Positions 30,047 to 42,223 of a stretch of 64,000 bases of DNA are shown piece after piece. A program made the position numbers and the translations under genes. Location: the NCBI RefSeq assembly GCF_052324685.1, contig NC_135212.1:5967278-6031277 (forward strand), given 5' to 3'. This DNA is from Brachyhypopomus gauderio. Its lineage: Eukaryota; Chordata; Actinopteri; Gymnotiformes; Hypopomidae. Under the pieces are notes generated by a model. That model did not search any database, had not been told where the DNA came from, and worked only from the letters and a program-made list of their open reading frames with translations. Position 1 is the stretch's first letter, and each line of letters opens with the position of its first letter.

Positions 30047-30350
30047 TATCAAAACGTAGGTTAAATAAAACAAGATGTTAAAAAAACAAGATTAGATTAA
30101 ATTATAAGACAAATTAATTTGGATAAATTTTACATGTAGTTACAAGATATTTAATCAGGGACTAATAATGTCATAAAATTCCAATATGGTCTTGATTAAT
30201 TGCGGTTTCATTAACAATTATGCTGCACTTCTAATAAGCACGATTCCAGGCGCTGGTTATATCCTATCTAATATGCGCATCTCGAACAGGGAAGTATTTT
30301 TTCATTTCCATTTCCTCATAGATTTGGATTTTCCCGCGTGCGCTCAGTGG

Positions 30351-30360
30351 TGTATATATG
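30351..30360 (+). promoter_or_regulatory. il17c: Candidate TATA box, il17c copy 1
   Basis: TATATATG lies about 70 bases upstream of the il17c ATG at 30424, a spacing that allows a transcription start about 30 bases downstream and a 5' UTR of about 40 bases. The same site is present in copy 2 near 36457. This is inferred from position only. Confidence 0.45.
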
Positions 30361-30423
30361 TAAGATTTCTTAGACGTCTGAATCAGTGAACACTTGGATG
30401 TAAGCTATCAGATCAGATCAGAG

Positions 30424-39100: not shown

Positions 39101-42100
39101 GATGCCCTGCCCCCTTGTGAGCGTCGACTGCTCACCACCATCACCGTGTTTCTGGAAGTGAGCAAAGTGTCGTGCTTGGCAACACTGCTGTTCACCCGTC
39201 ACCTGGGAGACCTGATGGCAGGACTTTGTCAGTTAGGATACCGTCCCCACCGCCCTGAAGGAGAGAGCACAGTGAGCATCAAGGTTGCACTCTTGAAGTG
39301 TGTGTGGTGTCGGGGAGCTGAGAAACAGCTGAGATTTAGGCTTGTCTAAATGTACATGTGTGTTTGTAGCTGAGATGCTGAGACAGCATTAATGAAAGGA
39401 TGTTTCTTTTCCTTTTCCCATCTCTGTCTCAAACATAGGGGCTAACTGTAGAAGAGCGGAAAGGTTGCAAACAAGCACTTCAGGGTCTTCTGGGAAGGGT
39501 TTATCAGCCAATCGTCATCAAGGAGCTGCTGGTTCTTCAGGGAGGAGCCAAGGTGTGCACTTCTCCACTGCCCTGCTTTTTTGCTCCAACCGTCTACCAG
39601 TCCTGCCGAGGGTCCATCAGTACTGTCCTGTGCTCACTCTGCTCTGTCCCCCCAGGCCAGCGCAGGGGCCAGTGCGGCCCTGACCCGGGCTCCCCCGTGG
39701 CTCCGGCGTCTGTGTGGGCAGCTGCTGTCGGAGAGGCTGGTGCAGCCACACGGAGTCCAGGCTGTGGTCAGGGCCATACTGGAGGGAGGCATTGGTAAGG
39801 GTGGGTGTGGAAGTTCAGAGGCCCTTCTGGAATGGCTTGTTTGTGTTCATGGACTGGTATAAATAACAAAAACTGGCAAAAAGTGTTTTTTTCTTTTTTG
39901 TGTGTGTTCATATGACATTTTAATTAGTACTAGATCTAATACAAGCTTTGCATAATACCAAGGTTTAAAATGACCATGAATATATAATTTTCTTTATTAA
40001 TGAAATCTTCATCTTTGCTTGTCTTGCTAAACTTTGGCCACTAGGTGGAGACTCAGACTGGAGAAAATGTGACGCTGTTGCAAAAATACTTGCAACCTGC
40101 CCTCAACAGTCTACCTCTGCTGACAGCTACTACAGTCAAGTGTGTCCACAGGTGAAGACAAAGCTAGTGCAAATGCTGTGTTTTTGTCACAATAAAGAAC
40201 TTTTTGTTTTGGTCTTTTGAATCATGTGTTGACCAGAAAGGACCAGAAAGCCATAACTATCTATGTTTAGGTCTTAGAGCTTCTACACTTTAAGGACAAG
40301 ACCACTGCCCAGCAGTTCCAGCGGGTGGCCACCAGGGCGGTGCTCACCATAGTGCAGGATCAGCCTGAGTTTGGTCAGCGTTTCCTGTTGTCTCCACTCT
40401 TCTCACCCCTGCATCGCTGTGCAGCACTTCCAGGTCTGTTTGTGTCTGTGTCCATGCCTGCACAGACTGCAGTTTTGCTTGACTGGCTGTCAGTTGTGAC
40501 CGACTGACTGTGTATAGAATGTGTTCAGCAATGCACTCGGGTGACACATGAGACGGCATCACCAGGGTGTGAGAGTGGGTCATCTCGGGAGTGGAGTCAG
40601 GCCTGGGTGAAAACGTCAAACTCCCGTTATCCTCTCAAAGCTTACCGTAGTGTGCTTTTATATTTTAGATCCTGCCTGTGTTGCAGGAGAAGATGTATCC
40701 CAGCATGCAGTGCCTGAGCTGGAGTTGACCCGCTGTGTGGAGGATGTGTATAAAGTGAGGAAGTTTGCAAGCACTGTCAGGTCTTCTCCTGTACCCCCCA
40801 AAAAACAATGTCTTGACTGTCTGAGGCATTTAGACCCATTAATGAACATTTCACCTGAATAATTGATGGGCATGTAATTCATTTGTTGGAATTTATCTAA
40901 TTTTTTTATTTATCATGTTTTAAATGTATGTATATCCATATTTAGGTGTATTCATTTTGTCTTTGGGTGACATTGGTTCAGTTCAATTAAGAACCTTAAC
41001 TGAATCCTTCCTTTAGCTTTAAAATGTTTCCCTTTATCAATTTAATATGCTTAGTTGATTTCTTTAGGTGGTTAAAGACCTGCTCACTGTGGGTATAATT
41101 ATGGGAGACTGAGCAGTTCTGTTGTCACTGTATAAGTGGCACTCTGCTAAGATTTTTTTGTTAAATGTGTACTGCAACTTGTATTATATGTAGACATATT
41201 TTACATTTCCTTTACTGTAGGCACAACTGACTACAAACAGGTGCTATAGCTCTGAAAGAGTTTCTGATGATGGTTATGATATTTCAGTTTCATCTTTCAA
41301 ATGCTGTTTGTCTATTTATTTTTCCCATTTCTTATAGATTTGTGTGGTTGGTAACAGTCCATCAGCAATGCTGCTGAGCTCTCTGGGAGACGCATTTCCC
41401 ATAATCTTCAACCTCTTCTGTTTTACAAAGCAAAATGTTTCCCACCTACGGTTAGTATTACCAGGAGTTATACGGTTGGAAATGTCTAACAGACATTCAG
41501 TAATGTTAAGTTTGCTCCACAGCGCCCCCTGTCAGGAGATCCTACTGTGGTACCTGTCACATACTGAAACCTCATTGGCACTCTCACTGCTGAAAGACCT
41601 GTGTGTCATCCAGAAAGATGGGGGCGGAGTCACATCTGGATTCCAGTTCTCACCAGGAAGTGAGGGTGGGGCTACACTCACCTGTCGACAGCCAATCAGG
41701 TAACTGGATGAATACGAATTCCTTTTGGCCTCTCAGAGCTTATCTCAGTACCCATGTTGAGCTCATGCTCTTGTTTTTTGGCGTTTCTCTTAGTGACGAG
41801 GACGACGCTCTGTATGAGAAGGTGTTGGGTGACCAGTGGAGAGTGGAGTGTGTCGTTCAGCTGCTGGCTGAGATGAAGGAGAGCGACCTCCCTGGAGAAC
41901 TGTTCCTCTTCCTTCTGCGTGTATGTGGTTATGGTGATGGACCTGTTCCTTCACAGCTTTAACATCAAGTCTTGAGAGAGCTGTAGTTTGTATTGGATGC
42001 TGTGGCCTCTCCTTCACCTCTCCTCCTGTGCTCGTAGGATCTGACGCAGTGGGCAGGTGAGGAACAACAGACGGAAGTGCACGTGGACATGACGTCCATG

Positions 42101-42223
42101 ACGCTACTGGAGCTGGAACAGCAGCTGGAGGGGCGGGTGCATGGGCGGGGCCAGAGGTTGGCCCTCCTTCACACCATGGCCGTCATGTGTGAGGGGCTTC
42201 CACACACACTCCTGCTGCGGAAA
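36153..42223 (+). repeat. Tandem duplication, copy 2 (il17c plus tango6 exons 1-11)
   Basis: Direct repeat of 30047-36149. The coordinate offset is 6106 at the left end and becomes 6101, 6110 and 6074 after three indels: loss of a 5-base GATCA unit just before the il17c ATG, gain of a 9-base unit near 38049-38066, and loss of two 18-base units in tango6 intron 1. On the right this copy continues smoothly into tango6 exon 11 and the rest of the gene. Confidence 0.93.
36525..37237 (+). CDS. il17c: Interleukin-17C, copy 2
   Basis: The CDS joins 36525-36530, 36676-36908 and 37009-37237 and encodes 155 aa with the same signal peptide, IL-17 cysteines and splice phases as copy 1. Two residues differ: Arg instead of Met at 70, directly before the conserved HRSLSPW block, and Thr instead of Lys at 155, the last residue, where two adjacent bases differ (AAA against ACT). 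All key residues are kept, so the copy looks functional. Only about 372 bases of duplicated upstream DNA precede the ATG; beyond that lies the broken exon 11 of tango6 copy 1 instead of the zc3h18 intergenic region. The polyadenylation signal is at 37690-37695. Confidence 0.9.

Follow-up and report, generated by a model that had tools for sequence, protein, structure and literature searches.

A probable recent tandem duplication of il17c and the 5' part of tango6 in the genome assembly of Brachyhypopomus gauderio

In the genome assembly of the gymnotiform fish Brachyhypopomus gauderio, a block of about 6.1 kb carrying il17c and the 5' part of tango6 is present twice in direct orientation. This arrangement most probably (roughly 0.7) reflects a recent, true tandem duplication, which probably segregates as a copy-number variant and arose by the joining of ends that share little or no homology. 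Slightly more confidence is placed in the duplication being real at all, most of it falling to a young copy-number variant. The window that was analysed is a stretch of 64,000 bases of contig NC_135212.1 (positions 5,967,278 to 6,031,277, forward strand), and all coordinates refer to it.

Self-BLAST and global alignment place copy 1 of the block at 30047-36149 (6,103 bp) and copy 2 at 36153-42223 (6,071 bp). The two near-identical blocks are adjacent and lie head to tail with three bases between them, the arrangement that defines a direct tandem duplication and that a preliminary description had already reported. Global alignment yields 18 substitutions in 6,062 aligned bases (0.30%; K2P 0.0030), and an identity of 99.7% over 6 kb is far beyond chance. 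The substitutions comprise 11 transitions and 7 transversions, with CpG sites accounting for eight of the transitions in a manual count from triplets. Furthermore, the copies are separated by three indels, namely ATCAG (5 bp), ATGTCTCTG (9 bp) and two 18-bp units (36 bp), each of which consists of one or more units of a short repeat. The preliminary description had counted about 19 substitutions and three repeat indels; its indels stand, whereas the substitutions number 18. The global alignment also prints a nineteenth, at 36151, which is spurious because the alignment runs on beyond the join there, and with BLAST there are 22 mismatches (9 + 13), as the 18-bp minisatellite is aligned differently.

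The differences are unevenly spread over the block. All 18 substitutions fall within 30154-33623, in the first 3.6 kb, which puts the divergence of that part at about 0.5%. The remaining tract of 2,526 bp, 33624-36149 in copy 1 and 39698-42223 in copy 2, contains no substitution. When 17 events were placed at random 200,000 times, with the neighbouring sites 31132/31133 counted as one event, 390 trials left a gap of at least 2,526 bp.

Both blocks carry a complete il17c gene on the plus strand with an intact frame, three exons and a product of 155 aa. Copy 1 spans 30424-31136 (exons 30424-30429, 30575-30807 and 30908-31136) and copy 2 spans 36525-37237 (exons 36525-36530, 36676-36908 and 37009-37237). 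The protein of copy 2 differs from that of copy 1 by M70R and K155T, the latter resulting from an adjacent double change, and one further change is silent. Both proteins contain the domain of IL-17 cytokines, with matches to Pfam IL17 well above the cut-off of 24 bits (copy 1, queried with one surplus leucine outside the domain: E 4.4e-23, 81.9 bits; copy 2: E 4.2e-23, 82 bits). Among solved structures, 25 distinct sequences match, belonging to IL-17A (the best), IL-17F and IL-25, and a search of the protein against NCBIfam gave no match; following the preliminary description, we assign both genes putatively to the IL-17C subtype. Since the duplicated unit includes about 375 bp of sequence preceding the il17c ATG, both copies probably keep their proximal promoter. 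The NF-kB pattern GGGRNWYYCC, with no mismatches allowed, is absent from the upstream parts of il17c, and its 10 occurrences in the window are no clear excess over shuffled sequence (mean 6.27; 16 of 100 shuffles reach 10).

The two copies of tango6, also on the plus strand, differ in extent. Exons 1-10 are intact in both, and in copy 2 exon 11 (42038-42232) is followed by its donor. The join between the blocks sits within exon 11 of copy 1, 9 bases short of the donor used by copy 2, and tango6 copy 1 (31890-36149) is therefore truncated: it retains exons 1-10 in full but loses the final 9 bases of exon 11 together with the donor. Thus, of the preliminary assignment to each block of a complete il17c and of tango6 exons 1-11 including every splice site, il17c and exons 1-10 are upheld, while exon 11 of copy 1 is not. 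Across the join, copy 1 reads LLRK-TYQNVG-stop, giving 641 codons of which the tail TYQNVG is made by the junction, and an AATAAA follows at 36170, just past the join.

Pfam searches agree with this division. Full or nearly full profiles of TANGO6_N (E 1.2e-114) and ARM_TANGO6 (E 6.4e-118) are matched by the product of copy 1, which, with IL17 in both copies, bears out the proposed tandem il17c and tango6 content; this product shows no match to the RTP1 families. TANGO6_N is also matched by exon 2 of copy 2. Downstream of the blocks, RTP1_C2 is found above its cut-off at 52120-52608 and RTP1_C1 in 42914-43594 at 21.3 bits, below its cut-off of 25.9 bits, so that the domains of TANGO6 (TANGO6_N, ARM_TANGO6 and the RTP1 C-terminal domains) are all represented, RTP1_C1 at sub-threshold level. 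As copy 1 is truncated and lacks the RTP1 part, the normal tango6 is copy 2 together with the downstream exons (37991-52611), which comprises exons 1-11 up to 42232 and then the exons leading to the RTP1_C2 open reading frame and its stop; these downstream exons were identified as pieces of an incomplete chain. The tango6 coding differences between the copies are R/C at codon 174 and C/R at codon 182, together with a silent change at codon 283. At codon 182 the TANGO6_N profile favours R by 2.2 bits over C, the state of copy 1, whereas codon 174 makes a difference of 0.1 bit. Copy 1 therefore probably carries the derived residue at position 182, which fits relaxed constraint on the truncated gene, with the polarity resting on this one residue.

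Some further elements lie around the block. A compound (AC)n minisatellite, whose units measure about 69-89 bp, occupies 22620-23146, a GC-rich minisatellite of about 970 bp with units near 25-34 bp lies within the tango6 span (50087-51054), and an array of about 35 copies of a 12-bp unit (430 bp, 54265-54690) separates tango6 from a hyaluronan synthase gene. The latter is represented by an open reading frame at 60889-61899, whose best solved match is hyaluronan synthase 1 (E 1e-132), and probably by an earlier exon at 58744-59670, which gives a weak glycosyltransferase match. In vertebrates, has3 adjoins tango6. Upstream of 30047, 14 of the 46 open reading frames of at least 110 aa were run against Pfam and none exceeded a curated cut-off; the open reading frame at 4394-4735 has a weak CCCH zinc finger match (22.2 bits, cut-off 24.6). 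Rfam at gathering threshold and a tRNA scan returned nothing.

At the join, the alignment leaves the three bases ACC (36150-36152), which can alternatively be read as one extra A and CC of original sequence. The left flank (GATTATGA/TATC) and the right flank (GCGGAAA/CCCAGCC) share no bases at the join, and neither alignment nor flank comparison reveals homology or overlap there. In a search for a templated origin of ACC, the 12 bases TGCGGAAAACCT, which include the join, were found to recur at 24572-24583, probably by chance.

The main competing explanation, which we regard as fairly unlikely, is a false (heterotype) duplication, in which a contig of one haplotype, ending in exon 11, was joined end to end with a contig of the other, beginning upstream of il17c, with filling or polishing of the seam. 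A divergence of 0.30% would be unremarkable between the alleles of a single fish, lying in the range of ordinary heterozygosity, and the heterozygous-like 3.6 kb beside the identical 2.5 kb is the pattern expected at a heterozygous/homozygous boundary. PMC9516828 documents false duplications both at such boundaries and through incorrect gap filling, and the cases described there resemble the il17c block in their adjacent copies, allele-like divergence and a difference-rich tract beside an identical one. Unlike in those cases, no assembly gap lies between the two copies: the entire window is free of N characters, a filled gap being possible. The seam shows no overlap, and the long arrays of about 970 bp and 430 bp are resolved without gaps in the same window, which suggests a long-read assembly, where a join internal to a contig would usually be supported by reads. 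The preference for a true duplication is founded on three absences: no N in the window, no overlap or homology across the join, and no gaps in the long arrays. In addition, the differences look like true mutations, since most of the transitions are at CpG sites and the three indels at short repeats, and the state of residue 182 in the truncated tango6 would count for a true duplication, as relaxed constraint would allow it. Read depth alone would be undecisive, because the cases in PMC9516828 include a genuine tandem duplication that was allele-specific and had haploid depth.

An older tandem duplication homogenised by gene conversion, perhaps common to sister species, could likewise account for the identical 2,526-bp tract as the product of a recent conversion. 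The remainder of the block, however, is also only about 0.5% diverged and an old origin is not needed, and we find this reading scarcely credible.

A recent true tandem duplication would trace to two breaks, one in the spacer that precedes il17c and one close to the 3' end of tango6 exon 11, which end joining or a replication-based equivalent united with little or no homology. The copies, the intact il17c frames, the truncated tango6 and the join itself are observed in the assembly; that the animal carries this join, how it formed and what it does are inferred. With rates taken as 3e-9 to 1e-8 per site per year, the duplication would be about 0.15-0.5 million years old if all differences post-date it, and perhaps much younger if the block copies derive from two alleles. 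Segmental tandem duplications and copy-number variants are characterised by direct orientation, kilobase scale, near-identical copies and a clean join without long homology. The il17c block shares all of these traits, no essential difference being seen, and a tandem duplication here would be nothing out of the ordinary.

Other teleosts, too, possess more than one IL-17C-type gene. IL-17C1 and C2 are named in sea bass, fugu and trout, with the pairs differing in expression (PMC7178287), fugu C-1 and C-2 lie at different map positions (PMC4517768), and two IL-17C-like genes in trout appear in a title cited in PMC4929537. The available parts of these sources do not describe the pairs as near-identical tandem copies, and in contrast to them the two proteins reported here differ at two residues and are encoded about 6 kb apart, whereas fugu C-1 and C-2 were mapped separately. 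Literature searches for il17c together with tango6, and for IL-17C with cyba, synteny and fish, found no papers; a tandem il17c pair was in no title or abstract start among the matches listed, with subscription papers mostly out of reach.

If the duplication is real, its expected effects would be a second il17c with its proximal promoter and a normal TANGO6 from copy 2, while tango6 copy 1 would give at most a shortened TANGO6, its transcript perhaps ended by the AATAAA past the join. Such a truncated fish TANGO6 could be inert, degraded or interfering. For TANGO6 studied in cells, PMC10943085 assigns RPB2 binding to residues 1-146 and 487-1094 and not to 161-472; should these positions hold in the fish protein, the shortened form might interfere with full-length TANGO6. 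Transcription of the truncated tango6 into the second il17c, yielding an in-frame TANGO6-IL-17C chimera or placing il17c copy 2 partly under the tango6 promoter, is a long shot. A chimera in frame is conceivable because a splice from tango6 exon 10 to il17c exon 2 would join two phase-0 boundaries and a GTAGGT lies in phase 0 at the join (36162), and either outcome, if true, would alter the site of cytokine production. Were the duplication false, it would caution that annotation would overcount il17c by one. If it is real, this fish would carry a copy-number difference in a cytokine gene that is typable by one PCR, with a truncated neighbour left behind.
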